64,000 nucleotides of DNA. Source: Owenia fusiformis (taxonomy: Eukaryota > Annelida > Polychaeta > Sabellida > Oweniidae). Position numbers and translations under genes: made by a program. The notes under the pieces are model-generated. The model did no database searches, had not been told where the DNA came from, and saw only the letters and a list, made by a program, of their open reading frames with translations. Shown piece by piece: positions 21,901 to 39,639 of the stretch. The stretch lies in NCBI GenBank assembly GCA_903813345.2, contig CAIIXF020000004.1, positions 21,302,477 to 21,366,476 on the forward strand. Direction: 5' to 3'. Position 1 is the stretch's first letter. The number at the start of each line of letters is the position of its first letter.

Positions 21901-24900
21901 AAAACATTCCCCCCCCCTCCCTCTCATTCCCTACTAGCAAGCTTACTAAGAACGGTTAAAGGACCTTTGTGGTCTAGGAAGTCAGAAAACAAAGTTAAAC
22001 AATTCACTTGTAGGTATTTTATCCTGTAACAAGACAGCATAATTGGCACAATTATTCCCATATTAGGATTCTCGTATTTTCTCAGTGAGAATAACAAGCA
22101 AAATAACCTCATTATGGGAACAAGATGTTCTTGCCAATGTTTGAGGTTTAAAATGATGGCATATTTTCTTACTGATACTGAGTGATGTCATGTTTTGTCT
22201 AATAGAATGTCTTGTTTTTGGGACATTGACCTAGACATTGATCATATCTGGGTTTTCAGTATTAGAGGGGGAGTCTATTGATTTGGTGTCTATTTAGATA
22301 AAGGTGCAAAGAGATGAAGTCTGTTCTGATTGGGTCTATTGAGATATATGTGTTCATTAGGGATAAGGTCTTTTGAGATATATGGTCTATTCAAACAGGG
22401 TCTTTTGAGATATAATGGTCTTAGGGGCGGGGTCAAAATATCGATGTTCATATGGAGACGAAAGTACTTTCGCGAGGGGGGAGGGGGTTTTTGGGCACTT
22501 TCGTTGACCAAAAAAACATTGATAATTCGGATCTGATATACAAAAAATAATTGGGACTTACCCACTTTTTCTGGCGCTATGTTCTGATAAAAAGGCTTGT
22601 TTTCAATAGTTCGTGAGCTTTTTTGTGTGATAGGTCCAAAATATCGGTAGATAAAGACGATAATTCGATCATTTTTCAAATAAATTCCGTACTTTTCCCT
22701 CCTCCTTTTGAAGAGTTCAATGCAGTTAAATTGCGAACGTGTGTTAATTCACCGTAATAATAACCCGGCAAATAGGATACGATTATGCCTCTCATTTGAC
22801 AGTCACTGAAAATCAATGTTTTTTTGAAGTGACCTAAGCTTTCGTCTAGAGGGGGGGGGGGGTGGGGGGGTTGTTGTCCAAACGAAATTACTTTCGTCTC
22901 CATATGAACATTGATATTTTGACCCCGCCCCTTAGGATAAGGTCTTATGAGATATATGGTCTATTCAAACAGGGTCTTTTGAGATATAATGGTCTTGGGA
23001 TAGGTTATTTTGTAATATAAGTTGATATAGGTTCTTTTGAGATATAGGGTCGGTTAGGATAAGTTCTATTCAGATGGAGTCTATTGAGATAAAATACCTG
23101 TTGATGGTATTAATTACAGAGATAAACTACACCATATCAAGGAAACATATACTCTTGAATGCATAACAAAAAATCTCTGAACTTGAAGTGACAGTCTAAT
23201 GCACAGGCCATCTACATGTTCTTATTCACAGCATTTTCTGTGAGACTGTGCAGTAGACTGTAATTATTCTCTATTATAACAGGTAGACTGTGTTGAATCA
23301 AAGTGATATGAAAGTGAAGGAATAAATTAACATTGGCCAGAAACAGGATGTATGATTATATCAATGACAGAATGAGCAATGATTATACTAATCAATACCA
23401 GGTCTTGTATGATTATATCAATGACAGAATGAGCAATGATTATACTAATCAATACCAGGTCTCAACAGTTAATGGTGACCATATGAACTCTATTAACAAT
23501 TATATTGATTCAACTGAGATGTTGCACATTTACATGTTTTTAAGCCATCTTATCTGGAAGGAAATTGTTGAAGGGAATAATGATAACATTAGTGGAGTTT
23601 GAACTTTTGTTAGATTCAACTTCATTGCAGGTTTGGAACAATTTGAGACTTCGCTGAAGTTTTGAAATATGTGAAATCACTTGAAGAAATCTTAGGTATT
23701 CAAAAAAGGATTCATTGTCTGTCAGTGAGGCATAAGTTACATTGATTACATTGAATTGTTAGGATTAACAAAGGTCCACATTTTTAGGAATAATTTTATC
23801 CTTAAGCGAAATATTGGAATAAAAGAAATAAGTATTTATGATTTCAGATCAGATTAGTATTGATGATAGCTAGGACAGTGGTGAATCATCGATATGATCT
23901 AAAAATACAATGTATATACAGTACTTGTTATTATTGGATTTCTTTGGTGTAATGTGAAAGCTGAACCAAAACATGTGCAGGCACGTATTGAATAAAACCA
24001 ATTGATTGCTTGGTATTAAAATATCAAATATAGAAGAGTTATCATAACAAAAACTGCAAGTGACATTTGTGATGATAATAACAATATCCAGGATTTGGTA
24101 TTAACAGATTTTTAAGACAAATGTAAGGTATACTGCTCCAGATCTTGAACAGGAAAAAGTTAGCATAATGTCCTTCTTTAACGTATACTTTCTGACAAAG
24201 ATTAGTGCAATTTTGACTAGCTTTCCAATGGTACAATTGATTTTGATATTTCATTAATTGTTTTCTTCGGCTGGTGTAGGGAAATCTAACCCATCACTTC
24301 TGTCTCATGAAAAATTTTGTATTTGGGTTTCTACACACAACAAGTGCACTTCCGGAAAGCAGATGAAGCCTCAAAGCGCGGTAACAACTACACCCCCAAT
24401 CCGTACTCTAAAATCATGGTACCAAACAGTACATTAAGAGTATGGTACAATTTGAGTATGGCACCGCAATCAATGGCACAGTATGGTACCATATTTCACG
24501 GTACCATACAGTACCATAACCAAAGCGATACTGTATAATACCATAACCGAAATGGTACTGTACAATACCATAATCAAAATGGTACTGTACAATACCATAA
24601 CCAAAACAGTACTGTACAATACCATAACCAAAACGGTACTGTACAATACCATAACCAAAACGGTACTGAACAATACCATAACCAAAATGGTACTATACAA
24701 TACCATAACTAAAATGGTACTGTACAATACCATAACCAAAATGGTACTATACAATACCATAACCAAAATGGTACTGTACAATACCATAACCAAAATGGTA
24801 CCGTACAATACCATAACCAAAACGGTACCGTACAGTACCATAACCAAAATGGTACTGTACAATACCATAATCAAAATGGTACTGTACAATATCATAACCA

Positions 24901-27900
24901 AAACAGTACCGTACAGTACCATAACCAAAACGGTACTATACAATACCATAACCAAAATGGTACTGTACAATACTATAACCAAAACGGTACCGTACAGTAC
25001 CATAACCAAAACGGTACTGTACAATACCATAACCATAATGGTACTGTACAATACCATAACCAATATGGTACTGTACAATACTGTTGCAGATTGGCTGTGT
25101 ACCCTTTCCAATAAGTTTGATTTTGGCTCTTTAAAAGAGAGCTCCATCTGTTTTACTCGACTCTGACATTTAGTTTAGATAGATCAGAACATAGGGTGCT
25201 GGGAGAATAGTGTTTTAATTAACTGTGACCTTTGCAAGTGTTGAGAGACTTGAAAGTTAATAATAAATAGAGAAGCATAACAAATACCTGTTGAAATGTC
25301 AACATCAGAGACAGTGGCTGAATGATACACACTTACGATATAGCATGTGATCCGTTAATTCAAAATTATAATGGAATGAAATGTTAAGATTTTTGAGGAT
25401 TGTTTCTACTTAGTGACTGGTAATACGAAATTCAAAGTGTTATAATATCAAACCAATATATTCAAGACAAAGAGGAATTTGAATGATTATTATAGCATAA
25501 CACTGATACTATAACTCAAAGTATTAAACTACTTCAAACTTAACTTTATAAAGAGAGGGAATGGTCACAAAAATGTAAAGGATTAAAAAAGAATTGCATT
25601 TAAATTAACTGTGTAATGATTAAAATTTACTATGACATTTACAAGGAGCTATTAATAACATATGAATCATATCCATAAACAATCCAAACAATACAAGTAA
25701 TATATATCGGATATACATTAAGTCAAGAGGATATCCAATATGTTTAGATAGTGCAACCCTGGGGTTCAGATGATAACATAAGAATTCAACACTCTTAAGA
25801 TCTGTTGACTAGCTGACCAATCAGCTGTGATCTGTTGGCTGACAGTACAGTGATTGACCAATCAGATGTGTAGGTTTTTTTGTGATACATAAGGCTTCTG
25901 ATTAGAAAGGCTTCATAGTTCAATGCAAGGATTATTTCTTATTTTAAGAGTCTAGATGAAGCTCCTGTGTGAGACTATTTGAAAAGGGTAATTGTAAGAG
26001 ATAGTATATGTACTACTACAGTATTACAGCAGACAATAATCTATTTGTGTTATAGGTGGATGATACGAGTTTGAAACTATGTGAATAACATCATATTTGG
26101 AAGATATCCAGATCAAAGGCAAAAACATTGGATATAACTGTTCTCTTGTTTTATAAGTATATGTCAAACATTGTCCTTGTGGCGGTTAGAAATGCATACA
26201 AACATGAACTGGGCTGTTGGATAGATAACAAATATCATAAACGATTGTATGTGAATATCTGTAGACACTACACGTTGGGAGCAATACTTTGGAAATATAT
26301 TGATACATCATGCTCAAATCAAACCAGACTCTTTCATCAATGGAGAAAGCATGCTCAAAACTGTGTTTGAAAAGACAGTAATATATATGCTAATAAGATA
26401 ATATGGACTGTTTACTTAACATATACATGAAGTAAACGTACAGTACAGGAAAAAAGGAGCTAAAATAATTTGGATTATTAAGTGAACGTAGATAAATAAT
26501 TGGATTATGAAATCAGGAACAGTATAATAATTGGATTATAAGATATGATAATAGACATGCCTGGTGAAATGATGCATGGATCGGGAACTATGACCAGACT
26601 GAAGCCTCTCAAACCATGTGTTTGGTGGTATACCCCCTCAGTAAGTATTTCTGTGAAAAACCCCTATTAAAACCTATTGGCATCATACACTATGACCAGG
26701 CTGAAGCCTTTCAAGCCATGTGTTTGGTGGTATACCCCCTCAGTAAGTATTTCTGTGAAACACCCATGTTAAAACCAATTGACATCATACACTATGACCA
26801 GGCTGAGCCTCTCAAGCCATGTGTTTGGTGGTATACCCCCTCAGTAAGTATTTCTGTGAAACACCTCTGTTAAAGCCTATTGGCATCATACACTTTGTTT
26901 TGGAGTCCCCTCTACAAGACATGATTTCATTATCACAATTTCAATTATAGACATAGATATCTTTAGATAACTGTTATTTTGCGAAATCATGTTCATTACT
27001 AAATCACAGTAAATGTAAAATGATGAAAAGAGGATGTTGGTTAGACTGTATCATAGGTTGTGCCAGTATTGCAAATAAACAGAGAAATATAAGAGGGGTG
27101 TGGGATATCAAAATGCCTTTTATGTTATATAGTAAAACCTTTATAAGTGGACCACAAGAAAGTTTTCTACTTAATAAGGTGTACTACTTGGAGAGTGTCA
27201 TCAACTAAGTCATTGGTTCACATGATTTGTAAAAACTGTTCTACTCACAAGGTGTACTACTTACAGATATGTTCCACATCTTGACAGTTGTTATATCACC
27301 ACCAAAAGTGGTGACCTATTGTTAGTCTCCAACGCTTTTGTAGACAGTGTGTGGCATTGGAATTCAGTGTCTGTAACAAATGGCAGGTGGTGATATTTTG
27401 CATGTTGTATCAATGTCAAACATGATGGCTATCTGGTGCCAAGCTAATGTTACAGATCTATGAGACACTATACACTATATCAGCAAACTGTAATATATAA
27501 CGCTTAAATTTAAAGGGTAATGTAGTGCCATCCTTATTTAAAGGTTTGTGTTACAAATCTGAGAAATAACACATCACCTATGAAAATGATATCCTAATGT
27601 AGCGCCATCTTTATTTTCAGGTCAATGACACAGATCTAAGAGAAGCTACACACGAACAGGCGGCAACAACATTAAAAAATGCCGGAGACACAGTTGAGAT
27701 TGTGGCCCAGTATAAGCCGGAGGAATACAACAGGTTCGAGGCGAAGATTTACGATCTTCGGGAACAGATGATGAACACTTCGACAGGGAGTCTGCGAACC
27801 ACCACAAAGAAAACTCTATATGTCAGGTATGTGTCTGCATGAACAACCCCAAATGTTTTACCCATGACAAGAAAATCATTTGAATTGTAAATAACAAACA

Positions 27901-30900
27901 TTATTTGTAAATTGTTGGAATGCAAAGTGTAGTTAGAAATTCATAATATTTATATTTTTATTTGAGTTTTATATTTTGATGATACACAGTCATTTTGGCA
28001 CTTAGGTTTATGTTATGGTTATGTTACATGAAGAAACCTTTACTTACAAAGGATCATTATCAGGATTTCAGAAAATTGTGAATCATTCATTGTTACCATG
28101 GATATCATGATGTCATAGTTAGAAATAACAATTGACCTCAGAATTCTCGACTTTACAAAAGCCACTTGCAAAGACCCCAAGAGTAGCATAAGCATTTAGA
28201 CAATTTCATCCAATGATTCTTTGTTAACGTATGCTTTGTTTTATTTCAGGGCTTTATTTGACTATGACCCTACTAAGGACAGCGGTCTACCTAGTAAAGG
28301 CCTACAGTTCAAATATGGTGACATCTTACATGTTACAAATGCCTCTGACGATGAATGGTGGCAGGTTCGTAGTATTCCTTAGCTTAGGTTAAGGAGGGGG
28401 TAACTGAAAATTTTTGTTTTTTTTGTAAAATCATAGATCTTTGGCTCTGGAATATACAGTAAACTTTTCTTATATGATATGAAGATGGTTGCATCATATC
28501 AAAATTATCTTGTGTTCAATGAATGGTGAATACAAATCACTTTTTCTTTGTCTTTCCTATAGTGTAGTGAGCAACCTAGAGTTTTCACATATAGGGGTAA
28601 CATTTTATGCCCATTATATATTCTCTATATTTCACGCATATCTTATTCTTTGTTATATTTTAGGCACGTATCATCACCACAGATGGGGAGGAAGAGGGAA
28701 TGGGGATTATTCCAAGTAAAAAACGAGTGGAGAGGAAAGAAAGATCTCGATTGAAAAAAGTTGAATTCAAAGGAAAACAGGGAGAAAAGGTAATGCATCT
28801 GTAACAAATGGCAGGTAGTGATAAATAAATAGTTTTTTATGTTACCACCAGAAGTGTCTTCAACTTTTTGTGGATGGTGTTTGGCGGTTGGTGTTCAACA
28901 TTCAGCATCTGGCGTCTGTAACAAATGGCAGGTAGTGACATTTTGTATGTTATTGCCTTGTATGATTAAGTAAAATGTGCACCAAGGATTTTATTTGTAT
29001 TATCGCCTTTTAACTGTCATAAAGCAATTTGCTTGGCAATAATAGTCTTAAAACTTGGCCTTCCAGCCTCTGTTTAATTGTCCATTATGGCCTAGTCACA
29101 TAGCCCGGCTGATGTCCGGCATCGGTAGAGCTCGGTGGATTTTTTTGGTGCCACCGAGCTCTCCTCATCGGAAGCAGAGCTCGGTGACGTGAACAGACTC
29201 CGTCCGGACATCTTCAGGCGACCGACCGAACACCGGCCGGTGACCGTACGGAGTCTGTCTCAAAATGGTAGTTTTTTTCTGCCGATGTGGCAGCAACTAC
29301 CGGCCGGAGGTCGGCCGGACATCGGAAGGAATACAGCCGGTACCCGAGCAGGTAACAGGACACCGTGCGATCGCCGGCCGGGCTGTTAACGGGCTTTGAA
29401 CAGTGACCGGTCGATGCTCTGTCCCACATCGGCCGGAGCTCGGTCGGAGCTCGGCCGCTGTCCGTTAAAAAACCTCGTCATCTGGTTGTATCAGATGCAC
29501 GGGACACCGGCCGATACTCGGCCGTGCACTGGCCGACGTGTTTTCCGATGTGGTTACGATGGGGCTGCGATGACATGATGAGGGAGCTCGGTGAGAGCCC
29601 GGTGAAATTTAACTCCGAAGTTAAAATTTCACCGAGCTACCACCGATGCGGTTTTAAGCAACAAACGCCACGGATGTCCGGCCGGTGTTCGGCCGAGTTC
29701 GGTGAAAATTGCATCGCTGGCTCATCGTAACCTCATCGGCCGGGCTATGTGACTAGGCCATTAGGAACCTTTTGCTCTAAATCACCCAGAAATCATTGAA
29801 TCCTGGACTTAAATTCCATTTAATTGGCAATGCTGTTATCTAGTCTTACCTTTAGCATCTGTTGTATTAATTCTGTATTTATTTATTTTTGGATTCTTTT
29901 GGTGATAATTATTTTATTTTTTTAATTCCATTTGATATTTCTCTAGGCTGGTGATAAAGACAAAGGCAAGAAGAAAAAGAAGAAGTGGTGGTCCAAGGGA
30001 AAGGAACCGAAAGAAACAGAAGATGTCAGCGCTGATGAACGTACGTATTTAAACAACCTATCAGATTTAATTCACAAATTCACACCGAATATACCTTTCT
30101 GGCAAATCAATTCTTTTTTCTGATACCTGATAAACAGACAAACAGCTAGTTGCATGTTAGATTAATTAAAAAACTGGCTTTAAAAATGTAATTTGTTTTT
30201 CAAAATTGGGTTTGTTATGACAGCAGAAATTGTTTAGAATCAATATTTGACATGATTAACAGTGGCGTAGCGTGGTAATTTTGTGAATGTACTCCAAATG
30301 AGATTGCGTTTGAAGCCATCTGGGACATTTTTAAATACTAAATTTTGATTAATATGGACCAATAAGATGTAAATTATTGGCCATATTTCAGAATATCCAG
30401 TAAAGTGTTAAATATAAAAAGTCAACTTTTCTATAAATTCGAGAGTACGCCATGGCGTTTTATGCTTATATGACACTACAGCATTGATTAACAAGAAGGG
30501 TGTATCTAGAGCATCATGGTAAACTGCACAATATTGGAAAAAAATATTTTAAATTAATCACTTGGTGATAGCTTGCATTGTCCACTTGTTTTATATACAC
30601 CTTCTGACTTAAACACATATCAGTATCTATATAACCATTTTCATTGGTCAATTCCTGTCACATGATCAAATACTGAGTATTATGGGAAGAGTTCCCTTGT
30701 GGGCATGTCCTTAATAGGAAGAGTTATCAACAGGAAATTATATGTCTTCTACAGGAAATGACAATTCTGAATTCTGTCTTTCATTATTAAGATATTGCTT
30801 CAGACATATATGGTTTAAAATCCAAAAAGAGTAGCAAAGAATGGAATTAGCAAGGAATAAGATAAACAGGCTTGATGTAAACATCCAAAATTGTAAAGTG

Positions 30901-33900
30901 CCAGAAAATCAGGAGTTCATTTTGAATTTAGAGAATTTTTTCTGCCACTCAGATAATTTGCTAGTGGGTCGATCATTGCAAAAGCTCATTCTTGGTATGT
31001 TGAATAATCTAAAAGCGATGGAAATTATTCTAGAAGTTTAATTTAATTCAGTTTAACCTGTTAATGGAATCACCTTTGTAAATTAAAAAATATGTTCTTT
31101 GTAAATTATATTCACATTTTCTAACATCATAATCATTAGACACCAACTGTAATCGTACTTTCACCTTAGAAACTTACAAATGGAAATTATAGGATACAAT
31201 ACAATTTAAAACTAACTGTTGGAAATTAAGAGAATGAAAACTATCATAATTTTAGCTGAAATTGAATTTTTCGGTTGATAACGTTTACTATTGCTGATCC
31301 CAATCTATAGGTGTTCACCCAACTCGAGAAGTGTTCACCCAACTCAATAGGTGTTCGCACAACTCAATAGTTGTTCACCCAACTCAATAGGTGTTCTCTG
31401 TATTCTTCAAATAAAAAAGGTCATTCTGTATAGACTTTATATTTCATTTGATTTGCTTAGACAGCTTTTGTAGGGTGTATAATACTTGATGGCTTTTTTA
31501 GGGTGTATACTATTTGTTGTGTACAGTTAAATGTGACATCTTGCATTCACATAACCTTCTGTGACATCACATTCCCACTGTGACATCACATTTTCCACTG
31601 TGACATCACATCCCCCTCTGTGACATCACATCACATGAAATCATTTGTCCTATTATTCGGCCTCGTATTCACAACTTTGACATCATATTTCCCACAGTGA
31701 CAGAAGTCATAAAATACACATTTTGTCACTTTATCACTTAAATCTTGACTAATGTGTATTAAAACACTAGACAGTATTTTAGTATTTTGTATTTATTAGG
31801 TAGGTTGAGTAGAGATTGTAATGTGAGACATCTTTTATGCAAATACAAACCTAAGTGTAAACAATCTGTTTTTAAAGATTTCATGAATTATGATAAATAA
31901 ATCCAATTTCTTACAATGTTGCCATAGTAATATTATGAAATATGATAATGGAATTCATAGTTTACTCAAAGTTTCTGATTGTACGAGACCTACCTAATAT
32001 GTTTTGTATTATATTGTAATTTACTAGTTCTCCATACTAGAATACTACTTTACAACATGGTTGTCATGGTGCTTTTCAATGTTTCTGAAAAATTTAATGA
32101 AAAGAGGAATGGGGTTTGATATAAAAGGCATAATAGTATACAGAATAATGAAGAAAGTGATTCAATATTTTAAAGAACAATCAAACATTAAAATTGAAAA
32201 TAATATGCTATTTTATGATCTATTTTGAGGTTCAGATCATTCTAAACATTTTAGAAATTCAGTATCAAAAGCACTTGCTAGAAAAACATACAAAATCAAC
32301 TCCTATAAACCATGAATACTGTGTAGAACCAGAAAGCCCATGACAGCTATGATATCTGTGGTGTATTGGTGTTTGTTTATATGTGCATTTTTACATTATA
32401 GTCGGAGGTCTGAATGGGTCTACTGGTGATTTGAGTAAGTTGTATTTTAACCCCTTATGGTCTCAACTTAACCCCTTCCTTGCCACGGATGTCTATATTT
32501 TGATTTGATGCATTCTGCATTTTATGTAAACAATAAAATCTGTCTAATTTTGATAAAAATGTTCATTTGGTTTATATCTGTATTAGTATTTAAAATGATT
32601 TTAATATTGACATACTTGATTTCAATTATTTTGCCAGATTAAGTTGTATCTGTCTAAATTGATAGAGAATTAATCTCGGATTTGCTGATTTATTTAAGGT
32701 CAGCCAGGGATCAAGGTCAAAAATCTATCTCAAGGTCAAACTGCTCTCATAGAATTAAACAAGGCTTTAGAGTTTTTGCAAAAATCTCAAGATGAACTGG
32801 ACAGTTTCTCAAAATCTAAACCTCAAAAGAGAGTCTCTATTGGTAAAAATAGTGTGTGTTATCCAATTTTGGGACTTTTTGTGAGAATAATTGTGGAGAT
32901 GAAATTTTTGTGAAATATTTAGTGGCATATATGGTCATGTTGTAGTATAACAATTACCCCTGTTCGATGATGATAGACTTCTCCATGTATCAATTTGGAA
33001 TAGTCTATATGAGTCAATAGGGGTGATAGGATGGTTTTGAATCTGGTGGCATCTTATCATTTGCATCAAAATGTTGAATATTCCTATTTTTGGAATGTTT
33101 TCAGTTGAATTTGTAACATACAATGAATCTCATGTTCTTCTGTTCTCATTGATTCTTTGACTATTTCATTTTCATGAAATTCCTGCCATGCATGGATACA
33201 CTTTGCTTATATGAACATACTTTTTTGCTAAAATTGTGCTTTAAGTGTTTTTATTTGTGTAATTTAAATGTATATTATTTAATTTTTGATTATTTTCTTG
33301 CTTTGTTATTCTTATCATCATTATTATTACAATGGGCGTGCCCTTATGTTAATCAATGATGATTCAATCCTGTTTTCTAAGAATATCCCTCTTTAGAAAT
33401 CATGGACTCTGCTTTCTTGCAATTTAGAACATTCCATTTGTGATAAAAGGGGTGTTAAATTGTTGTCTGCTTTATTTTCCTCAGAATCAATACAGTCTTC
33501 GCACACATCTCTACCATTCTTAGTGTTACATAGTGCAGGTATAGACACATTTTGCTTTTCGCATGCTGTCAAATGTGGTTCGACAATCCCATAATTCAAT
33601 GCATGTTATGCTGCTAAGCTTGATTCTGATTGGCTAAGCAAAGACTGAATGTGAATGCAGCCAATCACAGGACAATATAATGTGGATGTTTTATTGGCTA
33701 AACAGGGTCATGTGATGAGCAGATAAACTAGCATGAACAGAACCACATTTGTCAACTTGATTTTGCACATTTTGTTTGTATTTGAAATAATTAAAAAAAT
33801 AACCAATCAAAAACACTGATCATCAAAATAATTTCAGTCAGATTACAACATGAAAAACCTGACTAAAACATGAGTAAAGATAAATCCTGGAATATTTAAA

Positions 33901-36900
33901 AAATTAATTATAAAAAAAATTAATACTGTTATCCTAATTTTGAATCTAACACCAGTTCTATATCCTTAATTAAAATTGACATTTTTATATTTCTTCCCAA
34001 GCATTTCCCTTTAGATCAGACATAATGTTTTGATATGGCATGGATTTCTAAAGTTGAATATAGAATGTAAAGGATTTAGATTGCACTTCATTTGCACTTT
34101 TTGATAACTAACATTTGGCCAGTTTTGTGTTGATTGAATTGAAACAGTTGTATTATTAAATACATTTCTTACAAACACAACTATAATCCATTGAATGTTA
34201 AAAAACGGTATGTGTATGATTAAAACCTTGCCACCCCTTTTATAACATAATAACCATTGAATGGTACTTCCACCAAGAAAATAGTGCCAAATTAATTGGT
34301 GCCATTTGTCATTGACATGGTACTTAGACTCTCTCCTCTAGATATAGTAACAAGTATAAGATCTAACTAACAATACAATCATTTCGCTCCTTTATAAATT
34401 TATGAACAATTATGTTACTTCTTTTTCACTAATGCCCTATTAGTCACATTTGATTTACGTTAACTGTATGGTGTGGCGGCAGTAGCTTCCCAAAATCAAG
34501 AGATATATGCTGCATAAAATATAGGGATAAACAGTACGATGTAGATTTTCTATATCCATTTTGTGAAGCTACGGCCGCCGTGGAGCAAATGTGACTGAGG
34601 CTTTAATGTCCGTCATTATTTGCATAAGTTATTATATATATTTGCTTTGTTTCCACATACATCCCTCCTTGCACTGACATCTTATTCGTGATCAGGAGTC
34701 ATTTCTCAAATATATCAGGTTACCTGAACTGAGTTGCTAATAGTTTTTCACATATCATATTTAAACACAAAATAAATTGATGTTTCATCAGTGTGATTTA
34801 TTTTTGAAGCTGTTCTTACCTTCTATCAATTTCAGTTTTGATTAACCCAGTCCAGTGCTACCATCTATTGGATTAAAGAAATTCACAAATCATATGCAAC
34901 ATTGATACAAATTCAGTTTACAAATCTTATACACCAATATGAATTTCAGAAATGGCACCAAATTGTGTAGTGCACATCTGTCCCTTTGCTTTATCCTATT
35001 TCTACTTGTTCTTCACACCAGATAGATGCATGTTGGTAATACTGATTTTTTGTTTTACAGGAGGTGATGAAGCCATCTTAACATATGAGGCTGTAGTTCA
35101 ACAAGAACGTAAGTAAAATTGTCATTTTAGAAAAAATATTCAAATGAATTTTAAATAATTTGTTTCTCTGTTATATATAATCATTTACAGTTTTTATAAT
35201 AAAATCATTTAGGCCTTTAGGGCCGTCTATATATTTTTTTATGTTATCATTCACTAGTAATAACTGTATTCCTCTCAAATTATACTCTGTATTTGTTTTA
35301 CATACAAACTGAAAGCTTATCAAAGTTAAAGAATGAATATTAAGAATATTTTTACTAAAAAAAGCCTGAATAATGTACAAAACAAATGAAATATAAAAAC
35401 AGGGTGACCCCAAAAAAGCAGAACTCATAAGTTTTATTCTAAGACTTGTGTGTTCTGTAGTATTCTCCTTTTTGGGTCACCCTGTACAATTCAAACACAT
35501 AACACAGGATTGTAAGCTTCATTATTTGTTTGTTGTGGTCCAGTCTACCTTGCCAGACCAGTTATAATGTTTGGCAATGGGAAGGAGGAACTCTGTGAAC
35601 TGCTCATTCAAGACTTCCCCAATGAGTATGGGGCAGCAATTCCTCGTAAGATATAATAACATGTTGAAGGTATAGACTAAAACATGGCAATCTACTTTGG
35701 TTAAGTGCCAGTGCCATAGAGGGATTCCATGATTTGTTTTATGCCTATATACGAAATGCTAGAGGCATGGACTTGAAGGTGGCCTTCTTTGGTTTAGTGC
35801 CAGTGCCATATGGGAAGGGTGCCATGATTTGGTCACTGCCTATATATGAAACGCTAGAGGCTAAAAGGTGGCCATCCTCTATGGCTACTGTGCCAGTGCC
35901 ATGATTTGTTAAATGCCTTTATTTATGATGATAGAGGCATGGACTAAAACATGGCTTAGGTACTTGTATGGCACACCTTTCTCCACCAAATGGTTGAACA
36001 CCATAGGAGAATGCCATGTTTTGCTGTTTGCCCATACTTAATGCTATATTCCTTTGTAGAGATGGTTGTATTTCTGTGAAATTTTGTTAAACAATTCAAA
36101 TTGATGGGTAAAATCACAGAAATACTTTTCCATAAATAAGGCCGCTTAAGAAGGATGGATGCTCTAATACTAAATAAGTTATATTAATTCCTTATTATAG
36201 ACCACACCTGGGATACAGATTCAGATACAATCTATATTGCTTATATGTATGACCTTATATGGTAATTATTATACAAGCTTTGCTAACCTACACCTATTTT
36301 CCTTTCCCTACAGTTAAATGGACTAGACCAGTAATTATACTAGGACCTACAAAGGATAGAATTAACGATGATTTAATATCAGAATATCCAGATAAATTTG
36401 GAAGTTGCATACCACGTAAGTATTTTGAACCAATAGTTTGCAGTAAAACAAACTGAATAAATAAACTTCAGTTTGATAAATCTATGACTTGACTATACAC
36501 AGTACACAGATCTGACTCCTGATAGATATTGATCGATTAATTATATAAAGTTTGAAATGAAACTTTGGTTTCAAAATTATCTTCTCAGGATGAGACATCT
36601 TATGTACTCAAGCTTATTTTAGAATAATTAATTACTGCATTTTCTGAATTTTTTAAAAGATTGCTTCCTCTCTATCCCTTTTTATTCATTTAAGTTTTAA
36701 TAAAGTTCCTTTGGCTAATCTTAATATCTATGTAACCTAATTACGAAAATCTTCAAGAAGAATCTTCAGTAATGAATTTTCAGTAATACATACCCTCTTC
36801 AATATTTATGCAATTTAGACTTTGATAAAATACTAAATTAAGAATGTAAATATTCAATAACTCATTCATTAGTTCTGTTCACCTCATTATTCAAGACACA

Positions 36901-39639
36901 ACCAAAATGAAGTTTAAATATTGATTCCATTCCACAATTTCACTTCCCTATTTTAGATACCACCAGGCAAAGGCGAGATTATGAAGTTGATGGACGAGAT
37001 TATCACTTCGTAGAATCACGAGAACAGATGGAGAAAGACATACAGAACCACTTATTCATTGAGGCGGGGCAGTATAATGATAACCTGTATGGCACCAGTG
37101 TGACAAGTGTCAAGAATGTAGCAGAAAGGGTATGTATTTCTAGACATCACATTTAAATTCAAATAAAGTTTCTGCATTCATTTATTTGTTAGGTAGTTTT
37201 AAAAGAAAATATAAAGTTTGTCAAATTTGGGAATCGATTTTAGAAAGAATATGTCTGATAAAAATTTGTTTGCTTTACCAGATGTGACACTTTATTCTTA
37301 TAGTCCCTAATACTGGAAAAATAAGCTAATGGATTATTGGTCAAATTGACATTGATTTATGAGTATGGTCTCCCCAACATTTTTGTGGATGGCGGTTGGT
37401 GTTTGGCAGTCAGTGGTTGGCATATGTAAGAAATGGTGTCTATAATAAATGACACAAGGTGACATTTCGCATGTCAATTCCTTGTTTAAATTAAGAATGG
37501 ATTCTTCAACATTTTGAGAACATTAATGTTAATTTTTCTATTCTCTTTTTTCAGCAAAAGCATTGTATCTTAGATGTCAGTGGTAATGCAATTAAACGCC
37601 TCCAGGTGGCGCAGTTATACCCTATCGCCATCTTTATTAAACCTATCTCTATCGAATCAATCATGTAAGTATACCTTTTTCATTCATTTTTTGGAACAAA
37701 TTTTTCATTTAACACAAAATTAAAACCTTATTTACAACATATAGATTATATTAATCAAAATATCAATGTATAAATTAAAGATAGATAAGACATTTAATAT
37801 TTAAAAATGTGTATGTATATCCATCAGAGAATATATCGAGACAGTTTCTAATCACAATACCGTACAGTTTAATAACTCAAAGCCTAAAACCCGTTGACTC
37901 AATTTATTATCATTTTGGTTCAGACTCAGTAAGAGCTATATTATAACCAGTCCATTTGTATACTTTGTACATGTTAACATATGTTCTCTATTTTTAAAGA
38001 TGTCAATTTCTATCAAAATATTGCAGAACCGTCAGTAACTATTTTTTCTGTTGACAGGGAAATGAATAAAAGAATAACAGAAGACCAAGCTAACAAAACA
38101 TACGAAAGAGCGATTAAATTAGAGCAAGAATTTGGCGAATATTTCACAGGTGAGTAAGGAACTATGTTACAAGTCTTTTTGAAGTATGAAACTTATGCCT
38201 TAGTCACATTTGGTCTACGGCAACTGTACGGCGGCTGAAGCTTCACAAAACCAATATAGATATACCAATCTACATCGTATTGCTTATTCCTCTATTTTAT
38301 GCTGCATATTTATCTAGATTTTGGGAAGCTACAGCTGCCATATGGTTGCCTTAGAGCAAATGCGACTGAGGCATAAAGTCCACATGTCAGCTGGAAACTT
38401 TTTCCAGCTGAAATGCAGGTTGATATACAAGATGACATCAATTTAAAAAGTTTAATTCATGGTATATTAATCTAATTTTTTCAAGGGTTTTGTATTTTAT
38501 AGAAGACATTTTTAATCACATTTTTGTGTTATATTTGATTGGTCTTGTACTGGATGAGAGGGATCTACATTATTCTGCAAAAGCCACTAAATGGGTACAT
38601 CTAATAGTCACCATTTTTGTGACTGGTGGTCATTATCCCACCGAACGAAGTTCGAGGGGGATATAGAGAAGCCGTTCATCCATCCGTCTGTCCTTGTGTC
38701 CGGGCGATAACTCCAATACCGGTTGGTTCAAATTTTATAGGCTTATGCCTTATGAGTGTAGGACCTGCTCGAGAAGGAATTTTCAATATGGCCACTCAAT
38801 TCAAAATGGCTGCCATTTTTCGTAAAAAAAGTAATCGTTGATAACTCAAATACAAGTTGACGGATTTGGTTTAAATTTTATATGCTGATGCCTAGAGACA
38901 AAAGAGTTTCGCACAAAAATAGGCCATTTTTCGTAAAAATATGTAATCTTTGATAACTCAAATACCAGTGAACGGATTTGGTTCAAATTTTATATGATAA
39001 TGCTTAGGGACACAGTAGCTATGTTCGACAAAATTTTTTCAAGATGGCCTCTTAATTTCAAAATGGCGGCAATTTTTCGTAAAAAAACGTAATCTTTGAT
39101 AACTCAAATGCCTAGTTCACAATGGTATAAACTAACTTTGTGCCAAATTTCATGCTTCTATCACAAAGTGCACAAACATTTCAACATTTACACTAGCTAT
39201 AATAAGCATAATATATTTTGTTCAGTGGGATTTGCTACTCCGTGGAGTTGCTGTTTTTCTAGTTATAACTGATTAGCATATGTAACATATTGTTAAGCCT
39301 TAGTCGCATTTGGTTTACAAAATGGATATAGAAAATCTCAATTGTACTGCTTATCCCTATATTTTATGCTGCATTCAATTTTAAGAAGCTTTAGCTGCCA
39401 TACAGTTGCCGTTGATCAATTGTGACTGAGGCATTACAATTTTGATGCCATTTGCAATAACTTCTAGATGATAACATCTCTTCATACTTTGTCTGGGTGT
39501 CATGGTAACTAATATTTGTTGTTGTTTTTCAGCGGTTGTGCAAGGCAACACTCAAGATGAGGTCTATGCAAAAGTGAAAGAAGTTATTCGAGACCAGTCT
39601 GGCCCTACAATATGGGTACCAGCCAAGGAGAAACTATAG
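889..39639 (+). CDS. dlg1: Discs-large family MAGUK scaffold (PDZ2-PDZ3-SH3-hook-GK), 5' end outside window
   Basis: This gene encodes a membrane-associated scaffold that clusters receptors, channels and polarity proteins at cell junctions and synapses. Joining 889-976, 1340-1434, 1756-1933, 2261-2384, 11446-11602, 27621-27826, 28250-28364, 28664-28789, 29947-30040, 32402-32434, 32699-32842, 35061-35108, 36314-36415 (or 35544-35645), 36957-37129, 37555-37664, 38058-38149 and 39533-39639 gives 1992 nt: 663 residues plus stop. Domains seen are PDZ2 (GLGF loop, GNQHIPGDN), PDZ3 ([16 protein letters not shown]), SH3 (ALFDYDP, DEWWQ), a lysine-rich hook and a GK domain ([38 protein letters not shown]). 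The order and the C-terminal VPAKEKL ending are typical of DLG1-4. PDZ1 and any L27 domain must lie upstream. The MAGUK GK fold is known as a phosphopeptide-binding module, not an enzyme. Several hook and GK exons look alternatively spliced. Confidence 0.95.
984..1683 (+). repeat. Five copies of a CCCATAATGCA motif in the introns around the PDZ2 exons
   Basis: The motif occurs as CCCAGAATGCA (984-994), CCCATAATGCC (1005-1015), TCCCATAATGCA (1293-1304), TCCCATAATGCA (1639-1650) and TCCCATAATGCA (1672-1683). The last three are followed by related sequence (CATCTGG/CACCAGA, then AGCAGAC or AGAAGAC), so they look like copies of one short repeat unit. The core matches the known Staf/ZNF143 binding element (CCCAnAATGCA). 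A reverse copy is at 18757-18768. Regulatory function is inference only. Confidence 0.4.
1340..1434 (+). CDS. dlg1: Dlg exon: PDZ2 core
   Basis: The acceptor is TTTTCAG (1333-1339) and the donor is GTACAC. Phase is 1 in, 0 out. It encodes [20 protein letters not shown] followed by [12 protein letters not shown]. The GNQHIPGDN insertion between strands B and C is diagnostic of DLG PDZ1/PDZ2 domains. Confidence 0.95.
1756..1933 (+). CDS. dlg1: Dlg exon: end of PDZ2 and proline-rich linker
   Basis: The acceptor is TTTCCAG and the donor is GTAAGA at 1934. Phase is 0 in, 1 out. It encodes [20 protein letters not shown] and LTVAKP, which complete PDZ2, then a Pro/Ser/Glu linker ([14 protein letters not shown]) that leads towards PDZ3. 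Confidence 0.94.
1934..2260 (+). repeat. Intron with a copy of the AACAAATGGYAGGTGGTGAC dispersed repeat
   Basis: Bases about 2085-2220 belong to a short interspersed family with at least six more copies here (19709-19795, 21285-21345, 27290-27410, 28838-28972, 37362-37485, 47885-47995). Common landmarks in order are GTCTCCAAC, TGTCTGTAACAAATGG, AGGTGGTGACATTTTGCATG and TGCCTTGTTT. The 27290 copy starts with a small palindrome (CACCACCAAAAGTGGTG). No coding capacity was seen; it looks like a nonautonomous mobile element of unknown class. Confidence 0.55.
2261..2384 (+). CDS. dlg1: Dlg exon: linker between PDZ2 and PDZ3
   Basis: The acceptor is AATTTCCAG and the donor is GTAAGG. Phase is 1 in, 2 out. 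It encodes a Thr-rich low-complexity linker ([20 protein letters not shown], then [15 protein letters not shown]). The linker has no domain of its own, but length, phase and splice sites fit, and it joins in frame to [11 protein letters not shown] at the start of PDZ3. Confidence 0.85.
5387..5757. mobile_element. Mutator-like short transposon (371 bp) with promoter-like interior
   Basis: It begins TACCCTTTGCAT and ends GCATGCAGGGTA (inverted ends). It is flanked on both sides by the 9-bp direct repeat GAATTTGAG, as expected of a Mutator-type target duplication. The outer parts match 7048-7128 and 57798-57882 (TTCTTAAAAGAGAGCTTCGTC and TTTAACTAGACTCTGC). Only this copy has a roughly 270-bp, comparatively GC-rich interior with CCAATCAG, TGACGTCA (perfect CRE), GCTGATTGG and GGGGGCGGGG (GC box). 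It could act as a promoter in the PDZ2-PDZ3 intron, but no transcript evidence is available. Confidence 0.6.
7048..7128. mobile_element. Short copy of the TACCCTTTGC element (81 bp)
   Basis: It starts TACCCTTTGCATTTG and ends near ACAGGGTG. It shares TTTCTTAAAAGAGAGCTTCGTC and ACTAGACTCTGCG with the copies at 5387-5757 and 57798-57882, without the long interior. The flanks AGCAATACT and AGCAAATAT are similar but not identical, consistent with an aged 9-bp target duplication. Confidence 0.55.
11446..11602 (+). CDS. dlg1: Dlg exon: first part of PDZ3
   Basis: The acceptor is TTACTTGCAG and the donor is GTAAGT. Phase is 2 in, 0 out. It encodes [40 protein letters not shown] and [12 protein letters not shown]. 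This is nearly the canonical DLG PDZ3, the domain whose PSD-95 version is the textbook PDZ fold. The GLGF loop and the [10 protein letters not shown] turn are intact, so peptide binding should be preserved. Confidence 0.96.
13549..13632 (+). repeat. Dispersed repeat carrying CCACCAGGTGGC
   Basis: GCGAGTAGGTAGTTACCAGT, then CCACCAGGTGGCT, TTCGGG and a tail near TTCCCTTTAACTT, recur in the same order at 61003-61083. The 12-mer CCACCAGGTGGC (13570-13581) fits the CTCF core consensus CCASYAGRKGGC exactly. The repeat class is unknown. The CTCF match is a sequence observation, not evidence of binding. Confidence 0.45.
15138..15486. repeat. AATC-type simple repeat region
   Basis: From about 15138 to 15330 the sequence is degenerate in AATCAATCAGTCAG-like units. 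At 15433-15486 it becomes a clean (AATC)n run followed by (AAAC)n. This is an ordinary microsatellite with its eroded flank. Confidence 0.85.
22290..23060 (+). repeat. GTCTATTGAGATATA tandem repeat, split by an insertion
   Basis: Units like GGTCTTTTGAGATATATGG repeat with period near 31 bp at 22290-22423 and 22932-23060. A segment of about 60 bp left of the Harbinger-like element is repeated almost unchanged to its right. Confidence 0.6.
22424..22931. mobile_element. PIF/Harbinger-like nonautonomous element (508 bp)
   Basis: The ends are long inverted repeats of about 45 bp: GGGGCGGGGTCAAAATATCG at the left and its near complement ending CCCCGCCCC at the right, continuing through TGTTCATATGGAGACGAAAG. 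Flanking bases on both sides are TTA, the 3-bp TWA duplication typical of PIF/Harbinger. G-runs lie inside both arms. No transposase is encoded. The element sits inside a short tandem repeat whose units (GGTCTTTTGAGATATAATGG) occur on both sides. Confidence 0.7.
23349..23462 (+). repeat. 57-bp tandem duplication
   Basis: Two adjacent copies of a 57-bp unit starting TGTATGATTATATCAATGAC and ending AATCAATACCAGGTCT appear identical by eye, implying a recent event. The length is a multiple of three, which leaves a reading frame open by chance; nothing suggests it is translated. Confidence 0.85.
24503..25083. repeat. 27-bp minisatellite, about 21 copies
   Basis: The unit is GGTACTGTACAATACCATAA followed by CCAAAAC. 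The period of 27 is a multiple of three with no stops in one frame on each strand, which creates spurious open frames of more than 220 codons on both strands. The first half of each unit is nearly self-complementary (GGTAC.GTAC..TACC), so transcripts could form repeated hairpins. The flank at 25084-25105 resembles the first 30 bases of the window. Confidence 0.93.
26589..26895 (+). repeat. 102-bp tandem repeat, three copies
   Basis: Copies start at 26589, 26691 and 26793 with TATGACCAG.CTGA and end with GGCATCATACAC. The period is divisible by three, so a frame stays open. Each copy carries TCAGTAAGTATT, which fits a 5' splice-site consensus, but no acceptor or coding pattern accompanies it. 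Confidence 0.85.
27621..27826 (+). CDS. dlg1: Dlg exon: end of PDZ3 and lead into SH3
   Basis: The acceptor is TTATTTTCAG and the donor is GTATGT. Phase is 0 in, 2 out. It encodes [20 protein letters not shown] and [19 protein letters not shown], completing PDZ3 with its extra C-terminal helix, then [20 protein letters not shown] and KKTLYV at the SH3 boundary. The Tyr-rich [10 protein letters not shown] segment is typical of DLG PDZ3. Confidence 0.95.
28250..28364 (+). CDS. dlg1: Dlg exon: SH3 core
   Basis: The acceptor is TTTATTTCAG and the donor is GTTCGT. Phase is 2 in, 0 out. It encodes [38 protein letters not shown]. The ALFDYDP and DEWWQ motifs identify the SH3 fold; the DSGLPSKGL insertion in the RT loop is a MAGUK feature that weakens PxxP binding in this family. 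Confidence 0.96.
28664..28789 (+). CDS. dlg1: Dlg exon: end of SH3 and basic hook start
   Basis: The acceptor is TATATTTTAG and the donor is GTAATG. Phase is 0 in and out (42 codons). It encodes [20 protein letters not shown] and [20 protein letters not shown]. The IIPSK..VERKER..LK sequence is the conserved strand and helix that lead from SH3 into the hook, known in MAGUKs as a calmodulin and protein 4.1 interaction region. Confidence 0.95.
28790..29087 (+). repeat. Intron with AACAAATGG dispersed repeat copies
   Basis: A fragment TCTGTAACAAATGGCAGGTA occurs directly after the donor (about 28798). A fuller copy spans 28838-28972, with ACCACCAGAAGTG at its start and CATTTTGTATGTTATTGCCT at its end. 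It belongs to the same family as 2085-2220 and 27290-27410. Confidence 0.55.
29088..29760. mobile_element. GC-rich fold-back transposon (673 bp), TTA target duplication
   Basis: The left end is TGGCCTAGTCACATAGCCCG and the right end is its exact complement ending CTATGTGACTAGGCCA, with TTA directly flanking both ends. The interior is strikingly GC-rich for this region, dominated by CCGGCCGG-like words and nested small hairpins (AGCTCGGTGG with CCACCGAGCT; GGTGAAATTT with AAATTTCACC). No transposase is encoded. The TAGTCACAT terminal core is shared with shorter elements at 34433, 38196 and 39296, suggesting one superfamily, probably PIF/Harbinger-like by the TWA duplication. Confidence 0.75.
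29947..30040 (+). CDS. dlg1: Dlg exon: lysine-rich hook segment
   Basis: The acceptor is TTTCTCTAG and the donor is GTACGT. Phase is 0 in, 1 out. It encodes [20 protein letters not shown] followed by [12 protein letters not shown] run of six lysines and a Trp pair then an acidic stretch replaces the basic insert that mammalian DLG1 splices in here (known to bind protein 4.1). The basic patch could bind acidic lipids or 4.1-type proteins; that is inference. Confidence 0.88.
31309..31396 (+). repeat. 21-bp tandem repeat, four copies
   Basis: Units of GTGTTCACCCAACTCAATAG with single-base differences (one CTCGAGA, one GCACAAC). Confidence 0.8.
31540..31640 (+). repeat. TGTGACATCACA tandem repeat
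   Basis: Four copies of CTGTGACATCACAT are spaced about 20-25 bp apart, joined by C- and T-rich spacers. TGACATCA differs by one base from a CRE or AP-1-like site. No further evidence of function was seen. Confidence 0.7.
32402..32434 (+). CDS. dlg1: Dlg 33-nt microexon in the hook, probably optional
   Basis: TTATAG precedes it and GTAAGT follows. Phase is 1 in and out, adding [11 protein letters not shown] and no stop. It is symmetric and short, so it can be skipped without a frame change; skipping joins DE(C) to GT of the next exon, giving Arg. DLG hooks are known for small alternative inserts. No known domain is present, so confidence rests on frame and splice sites only. Confidence 0.6.
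32699..32842 (+). CDS. dlg1: Dlg 144-nt hook exon, probably optional
   Basis: The acceptor is TTTATTTAAG and the donor is GTAAAA. Phase is 1 in and out (48 codons). It encodes [40 protein letters not shown] and PQKRVSI. The middle is a likely amphipathic helix ([19 protein letters not shown]) and the end looks like a basophilic kinase site (KRVSI). I know no equivalent in vertebrate DLG hooks. It could be an alternative exon. Confidence 0.65.
32843..35060. other. Intron in the hook region
   Basis: It holds one short inverted-repeat element (34433-34602, listed separately). The rest is AT-rich and no exon was recognised. Confidence 0.6.
34433..34602. mobile_element. TAGTCACATTTG short inverted-repeat element, copy 1
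   Basis: It starts TGCCCTATTAGTCACATTTG and ends CAAATGTGACTGAGGCT. The interior has GTAGCTTCCCAAAATC, GCTGCATAAAATATAGGGAT and ACAGTACGATGTAGATTT, which recur (inverted) in 38196-38373 and in part in 39296-39433. TAA/TTA flanks suggest a TWA duplication. No coding capacity. Confidence 0.65.
35061..35108 (+). CDS. dlg1: Dlg exon: short segment before the GK domain
   Basis: The acceptor is TTGTTTTACAG and the donor is GTAAGT. Phase is 1 in and out (16 codons). It encodes [16 protein letters not shown], equivalent to the YEEVLSYEPVxQQE strand of mammalian DLG that pairs SH3 with GK. Confidence 0.9.
35400..35484. mobile_element. Mariner-like short inverted-repeat element (85 bp)
   Basis: CAGGGTGACCCCAAAAA at the left pairs with TTTTTGGGTCACCCTG at the right. 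The CAGGGTG terminus is typical of mariner-derived short elements. It lies between the 48-nt exon and alternative exon 13a. Confidence 0.7.
35544..35645 (+). CDS. dlg1: Dlg alternative GK exon 13a (variant nucleotide-loop segment)
   Basis: GTGGTCCAG precedes it and GTAAGA follows. Phase is 1 in and out, exactly 102 nt like exon 13b. With the split codon it encodes [34 protein letters not shown]. Thirteen of 34 residues match exon 13b at the same positions (RPVI, G, K, LI, P, G, IP). The loop reads FGNGKEE where 13b has LGPTKDR. There is no stop, and the flanking junctions are conserved with 13b. I read it as a mutually exclusive alternative to 13b. Using both or neither would also keep the frame. 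Confidence 0.82.
35646..36313 (+). repeat. Intron between the alternative GK exons, with about 110-bp tandem repeats
   Basis: Three diverged copies from about 35696 to 35960 share GTGCCAGTGCCAT, CCATGATTTG, TGCCTATAT and GCTAGAGGC or ATAGAGGC in order. The repeats fill much of the 668-bp spacer between exons 13a and 13b. Whether they pair in RNA to enforce exon choice is unknown. Confidence 0.65.
36314..36415 (+). CDS. dlg1: Dlg canonical GK exon 13b (nucleotide-loop segment)
   Basis: The acceptor is TTTCCCTACAG and the donor is GTAAGT. Phase is 1 in and out, 102 nt. It encodes [34 protein letters not shown], very close to what fly and vertebrate DLG proteins carry at this position. The loop GPTKDR replaces the catalytic GxxGxGK(S/T) of true guanylate kinases, as usual in MAGUKs. 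Confidence 0.95.
36957..37129 (+). CDS. dlg1: Dlg exon: GK domain, GMP-binding region
   Basis: TATTTTAG precedes it and GTATGT follows. Phase is 1 in, 0 out. It encodes [57 protein letters not shown]. [18 protein letters not shown] is the conserved GK subdomain, used by MAGUKs for phosphoserine peptides. The exon joins in phase with both 13a and 13b. Confidence 0.96.
37130..37554 (+). repeat. Intron with an AACAAATGG-family repeat copy
   Basis: A diverged copy lies at about 37362-37485 (GTCTCCCCAACATTTTTGTG, GGTGTTTGGC, ACAAGGTGACATTTCGCATG). No other feature was seen. Confidence 0.45.
37555..37664 (+). CDS. dlg1: Dlg exon: GK domain core
   Basis: TTTTTTCAG precedes it and GTAAGT follows. 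Phase is 0 in, 2 out. It encodes [36 protein letters not shown](M), almost identical to the fly and vertebrate GK core. Confidence 0.96.
38058..38149 (+). CDS. dlg1: Dlg exon: GK lid helix
   Basis: CTGTTGACAG precedes it and GTGAGT follows. Phase is 2 in, 1 out. It encodes (M)[11 protein letters not shown]-like residues, read here as [30 protein letters not shown], the lid-region helices of the GK domain. Confidence 0.95.
38196..38373. mobile_element. TAGTCACATTTG short inverted-repeat element, copy 2
   Basis: The left end is TGCCTTAGTCACATTTGG and the right end is CAAATGCGACTGAGGCA. The interior shares TTTTATGCTGCATA and GGGAAGCTAC(A)GCTGCC with the other copies. It lies in the intron after the lid exon. 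Confidence 0.7.
38620..39265 (+). repeat. Dispersed repeat with CCACCGAACGAAGTTCGAGG start
   Basis: It opens with a small palindrome (CGAACGAAGTTCG) and a run of CATCC/CGTC words. It then has three internal units of roughly 110-130 bp containing AAATGGC.GCCATTTTTCGTA and ATAACTCAAATACCAGT, and ends near GGGATTTGCTACTCCG. A second, partial member is at about 63170-63455. No intact protein was seen. The class is unknown. Confidence 0.55.
39296..39433. mobile_element. TAGTCACATTTG short inverted-repeat element, copy 3
   Basis: It starts AGCCTTAGTCGCATTTGG and ends CAATTGTGACTGAGGCA, with TTA on both flanks. The interior shares GCTTATCCCTATATTTTATG with copies 1 and 2. It is shorter than the others through an internal deletion. 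Confidence 0.65.
39533..39639 (+). CDS. dlg1: Dlg terminal coding exon
   Basis: The acceptor is GTTTTTCAG. Phase in is 1; it ends at the TAG of 39637-39639. It encodes [34 protein letters not shown], the invariant C-terminus of DLG GK domains (IWVPAKEKL in DLG1). Confidence 0.97.

Follow-up and report, generated by a model that had tools for sequence, protein, structure and literature searches.

An old, selected duplicate of a guanylate kinase exon in the DLG gene of Owenia fusiformis, probably exchanged by splicing and predicted to lack a PAR-1/MARK site

The window analysed in this work is the whole 64-kb stretch of DNA from Owenia fusiformis, and positions given without a contig name refer to it. 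The window carries a DLG gene on the + strand where PDZ2, PDZ3, SH3, HOOK, and the C-terminus of the GK domain are encoded in that order. The window lies on contig C4 of the assembly. Three of the query pieces that were used to place the DLG domains are human peptides. The positions of the exons are shown in Table 1. The GK piece joined with exon 13b has fly Dlg (3tvt) as its best solved match (E 5e-73), followed by mammalian DLG1 and PSD-95. This match and the collinear domains bear out the identification of the gene as Dlg in the initial annotation, and the PDZ-SH3-GK order and the DLG-like GK domain are features of a DLG-type MAGUK. DLG is a core scaffold of polarity, spindle orientation, and the synapse.

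The exon that follows the pair studied here, which encodes the phosphate site, reads TTRQRR where the solved DLG chains read TTRPKR (P569 -> Q and K570 -> R). An open stretch between the HOOK and GK exons (32698-32910) possibly encodes a helical peptide and has no Pfam match. Long open frames on both strands at 24456-25163 run over repeated peptides (e.g. QYHNQNGTV), and this region resembles a minisatellite more than a gene. Downstream of DLG, 56036-56242 encodes part of an alpha-amylase (PF00128, E 1.5e-16). The search against Rfam at gathering scores gave no match in the 64 kb. Elsewhere in the genome, contig C6 carries an FMRFamide-type precursor around 23756702-23757375 with 23 FMRFGK copies, many of which are parted by acidic spacers (e.g. 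KDGEDEKR). A precursor of this type points to a lophotrochozoan. The COX1 family had no match in the assembly.

Table 1. Positions of the DLG exons and of the intron between exons 13a and 13b in the window.
Feature	Position	Strand	Remarks
PDZ2	1339-1434, 1756-1929	+	Window search; weak match also at 913-978
PDZ3	11447-11602, 27621-27827	+	Window search
SH3	28251-28364, 28664-28777	+	Window search
HOOK exon, basic	29947-30039	+	Window search
Upstream DLG exon, ends in phase 1	35061-35108	+	Flanked by AG and GTAAGT; in frame with 13a or 13b
Exon 13a, diverged copy	35544-35645	+	102 nt, phase 1-1, open, AG/GT
Intron between 13a and 13b	35646-36313	+	
Exon 13b, canonical DLG copy	36314-36415	+	102 nt, phase 1-1; 29/34 identical to fly Dlg
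Next GK exon, taken as constitutive	36957-37129	+	Holds R568, R571, Y580, and Y609 (PSD-95 numbering)
GK exon	37555-37664	+	
GK exon	38058-38149	+	
Last GK exon with stop	39533-39639	+	Stop codon at 39637-39639

Two exons in this gene, 13a and 13b, had been proposed to be alternative versions of one segment of the GK domain. Their positions, equal length, phase, and AG/GT borders hold, and so does the identity of 13 of the 34 residues between them (the count takes in the first codon, whose first base belongs to the upstream exon). The nucleotides are identical at 49 of the 102 positions. The label of 13b as the canonical copy is also borne out since its identity to fly Dlg over the exon compares with 11/34 for 13a. 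Of 26 residues that do not vary among PSD-95, fly Dlg, and SAP97, 24 are kept in 13b and nine in 13a. The splice sites of both exons are good, and by eye those of 13a are weaker than those of 13b. The donor of 13a is CTC/GTAAGA compared with CAC/GTAAGT in 13b, and pyrimidines occupy 11 of the 17 positions from -20 to -4 in 13a compared with 15 of 17 in 13b (both by eye).

The likeness between both exons was compared with that of candidate exons, namely 102-nt segments that follow an AG, precede a GT, and are open in phase 1, scored against 13b with BLOSUM62. Of the 24 such candidates on the + strand of the window and the 26 on its - strand, none but 13b itself (187) and 13a (70) has a positive score. 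The best score among the 654 + strand candidates of 40 first-order Markov windows is 0, and one of the best-per-window candidates reached nine identities. Searches of the 498-Mb assembly point to the same origin. Searched with its DNA, 13a has no match but itself; its peptide also matches 13b, though weakly (19.4 bits, E 0.83). The peptide of 13b matched itself, then an exon at C9:11115070-11115159 (RPVLILAPLAESLISKLILESPDKF; 20.0 bits), and then 13a (19.4 bits). The exon on contig C9 is GK-like (48% over 31 columns), its locus also codes for another GK-like piece, and we take it to be DLG5. In the window search 13a matched 13b with 31.6 bits, compared with 23.1 bits for a PALS1-like exon, 22.3 bits for another MAGUK exon, and 18.9 bits for the exon on contig C9. 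The nearest relative of 13a is therefore 13b, in place, which is the pattern expected of a tandem duplication, and the score of the exon on contig C9 lies below that of 13b so that an origin from the DLG exon stands. No further copy of the exon was found in the window by tblastn at E 1.

It is extremely improbable that 13a is an open reading frame that arose by chance, or that it was copied from a repeat or a different MAGUK gene. The PALS1-like exon does resemble 13a weakly (33% of 33 aligned columns). However, the score of 70 is far from the maximum of 0 among the random candidates, the DNA of 13a matches nothing but itself in the genome, and at the protein level nothing else matches it as well as 13b. 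The length and phase of 13a also equal those of 13b exactly, whereas the PALS1-like segment needs a gap of three residues. The random-window scores and the genome searches thus rule out chance, paralogue, and repeat origins, and the exon duplication that had been claimed on the equal length, phase, and protein likeness of both exons is well supported by the sequence comparisons.

The codon positions show how the two exons diverged. The first, second, and third positions are identical in 18, 23, and 8 of the 34 codons, where 8.6, 9.0, and 8.7 are expected by composition (Fisher p 0.0007 for positions 1 and 2 against the third). The third positions are saturated and the first and second are not, which indicates that the duplication is old and that 13a has been kept under selection at the protein level; had selection on the copy been lost soon after duplication, identity should have fallen close to random at every codon position. 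The change since duplication is far greater in 13a than in 13b, as seen in the invariant residues kept. Neutral decay was simulated in 20,000 runs where one copy alone, starting from present-day 13b, decayed to the observed nucleotide identity. Of the decayed copies, 11.8% are open, 4.9% keep both splice dinucleotides, and 0.53% have both properties. Thirteen identities were found in 10 runs and the observed third-position count in eight, and none of the 20,000 reached the protein score of 13a (maximum 49). The codon-position pattern and the decay simulation rule out a long-standing neutral pseudo-exon. We read the divergence of 13a as old with the constraint of the fold retained, and there is good support in these patterns for 13a behaving like a coding exon under selection.

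These patterns also bear on whether 13a is a relic that was functional for long and is no longer spliced in this species. The weaker splice sites of 13a, the alteration of 17 of the 26 invariant residues, and a dispersed repeat close to its acceptor are consistent with such a relic. However, 13a has no stop, frame, or splice-dinucleotide damage, and the simulation rarely kept the frame together with the splice dinucleotides and never the protein score. Only a recent death would fit these observations among the relic readings, and we consider it unlikely. The repeat lies at 35399-35485 on the + strand, 58 nt upstream of 13a, and has at least 11 further diverged matches elsewhere in the genome. 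It can form a hairpin from 17-nt inverted arms (94% complementary) with 53 nt between them, and it could affect the branch point or the pairing of 13a. The intron between both exons holds three degraded direct repeats at 35661-35955 (about 77-95 nt from start to start), and the first 475 nt of this intron matched only themselves in the genome.

The segment encoded by the exon pair was placed in the GK fold with PSD-95 numbering, which was set by fitting 14 residues named in PMC9005747; one register fits 14/14. The initial annotation had placed the segment in the nucleotide loop next to the phosphopeptide site. The segment does lie within the GK fold, but the phosphate-site residues R568, R571, Y580, and Y609 belong to the next exon. 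D579, A601, G602, Q603, T611, and D629 also lie outside the swapped exon. The segment itself holds D545 and D549, which are contacts in the P-loop and helix 1, and the hinge and interface residues S561, C562, and P564. In the simulations described in PMC9005747, D545 and D549 contact the arginines of peptides, and S561 and C562 also touch peptides. Exon 13a differs from 13b by D545E, D549E, K558 -> E, S561A, and C562A at these and nearby positions.

The hinge has been studied in an ancestral GK enzyme, and in DLG it is a much-examined example of the change from enzyme to scaffold (PMC4718807). In that study the ancestral enzyme became able to bind Pins through the hinge substitution f33S or s36P, and s34C was treated as an interface change without effect on Pins binding. 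By our own mapping on spacing and letter, positions 33, 34, and 36 would correspond to S561, C562, and P564. With this correspondence 13a retains the proline that confers scaffold function and alters the other two sites. P564 (position 36), a feature of GK interaction domains that are not enzymes, is kept in both 13a and 13b. The GK piece scores 203.3 bits against Guanylate_kin when it includes 13b, 181.6 bits with 13a, and 158.0 bits with neither. Ahead of its intron, the PALS1-like paralogue of this genome has FAAAVP, with alanine at both hinge positions, and the solved MPP5 chain reads FASAVP. An A-A hinge is thus tolerated in a GK domain.

The initial annotation had also suggested that both isoforms could have different GK partners. 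Such a difference is possible because D545, D549, S561, and C562 touch peptides in the published simulations. The nine invariant residues that remain in 13a may mean different or poor binding. A regulatory change through the loss of a phosphorylation site appears at least as likely as a change of partners.

KxGS is a MARK motif. Exon 13b reads KFGS at the S561/position 33 site, where the serine is present, and 13a reads EYGA, where it is absent. It has been reported that PAR-1/MARK phosphorylates fly Dlg, and PSD-95 at the conserved Ser561 (PMC4709733 and PMC4416788). A review describes the phosphorylation of Ser561 as a switch between the open and closed forms of PSD-95, and the phospho-deficient PSD-95 mutant as favouring the open form and scaffolding (PMC6502786). 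The search of open-licence papers for Ser797 together with Dlg gave nothing. We infer from these residues that 13a would give a splice-encoded phospho-null Dlg isoform.

The remaining question is how both exons would be joined to the transcript. Mutually exclusive exons are recognised in PMC3228551 by similar length, same frame, splice sites, and homology. Exons 13a and 13b are neighbouring internal exons that share length, phase, and AG/GT borders and have homology beyond chance. In its Drosophila X-chromosome set, with 16,180 exon entries from 1,705 genes, the same source counts 90 entries in six genes that share these features and are annotated as constitutive or differentially included. 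This proportion makes the features a strong, though not certain, sign of mutual exclusion. A swap of 13a for 13b by alternative splicing, as had been proposed, is likely on these features.

Exon 13a might also be alternative without being swapped, so that it is added along with 13b or both are skipped, and this would give a Dlg with an altered GK domain. The spliced products are open in all four combinations (13a only, 13b only, both, and neither), so exclusivity is not enforced by the frame. Pairing of the docking/selector type between the three introns was no better than in shuffled sequence; the best ungapped helix scores (26, 23, and 25) are within or below the range of 12 mononucleotide shuffles of each pair. 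The outer two introns share a 12-nt near-complement. Inclusion of both exons, however, would repeat strand 1, the P-loop, and helix 1 in a compact fold, and skipping of both would delete them, as judged from the GK fold. Replacement also agrees better with the constraint that has kept 13a similar to a GK segment, and homologous neighbours that are not mutually exclusive are rare in the Drosophila count above. We regard such non-exclusive use as improbable.

Motifs of splicing regulators were counted as raw matches at 35040-37000. Neither TGCATG nor ACTAAY (QKI) is present in this region. The region has two GCATG, and the middle intron has four YGCY pairs and one YCAY cluster. Three overlapping YCAY clusters precede the exon at 36957, one TGTTTGT lies just before 13a, and one TTCTCT lies near 35164.

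The reading we prefer, to which we give a probability of about two in three, is that 13a is functional, arose by an ancient duplication of 13b, and replaces 13b in some transcripts. Exon 13b, with its stronger splice sites, would be the default, and 13a would be taken in its place under regulation; the weaker donor and pyrimidine tract of 13a are in keeping with regulated inclusion next to a default exon. The 13a isoform would retain the phosphate-binding pocket, which is encoded by the next exon, P564, and acidic residues at the two arginine-contact positions (D545E and D549E), so that its GK domain should still be of the binding type and not enzymatic. The changes S561-C562 -> A-A and K558 -> E would remove the PAR-1/MARK phosphorylation site. 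The most likely effect would be that PAR-1 can no longer switch Dlg at this position, with some shift in peptide preference, and such a Dlg would be comparable to the phospho-deficient PSD-95 mutant in its open, scaffold-competent form. The more specific proposal, that the exon choice encodes a PAR-1/MARK-blind Dlg where the hinge through which the guanylate kinase enzyme evolved into a spindle-orienting scaffold is swapped between phosphorylatable and permanently unphosphorylatable versions with an unchanged peptide pocket, is tentative, and we hold it at somewhat less than even odds. The duplication itself is, on the sequence evidence, real, old, and selected.

The initial annotation knew of no DLG isoform pair of this kind. 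We likewise found none among the open-licence papers listed, judged by their titles and the starts of their abstracts, and the main texts of PMC3228551, PMC5740500, PMC3303723, PMC9013439, and PMC9741552 contain 0 occurrences of 'dlg'. Exon duplications of this kind are already known; within the reach of this search, the novelty lies in the place in DLG and in the PAR-1 switch that 13a is predicted to have lost. If 13a is used, the exon choice would be a natural experiment on the GK hinge and the PAR-1 switch, and kinase sensitivity could be set per tissue.

The exon pair resembles the tandem mutually exclusive exons described in PMC3228551 and, for a human set, in PMC9741552 in being adjacent, internal, equal in length, the same in phase and frame, homologous, old, and in encoding the same part of the protein. 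Exon 13b and the GK exons that follow are ordinary DLG sequence, similar to the GK domains of fly Dlg, SAP97/DLG1, and PSD-95, whereas 13a supplies another version of the hinge and P-loop; the DLG chains in the three alignments compared are all 13b-like. Exon 13a shares alanine at positions 33 and 34 with the PALS1/MPP5-like GK domain (the best solved match of the paralogue is MPP5, E 6e-14), and a phase-1 intron follows the same proline in both. However, the P-loop of the PALS1/MPP5-like domain is three residues longer, and 13a is nearer to 13b (31.6 compared with 23.1 bits). Exon 13a also resembles the phospho-deficient PSD-95 (Ser561) laboratory mutant since it has no serine at that position and has alanine instead. 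Unlike that mutant, 13a alters 20 other residues, and the isoform would be natural and controlled by splicing.
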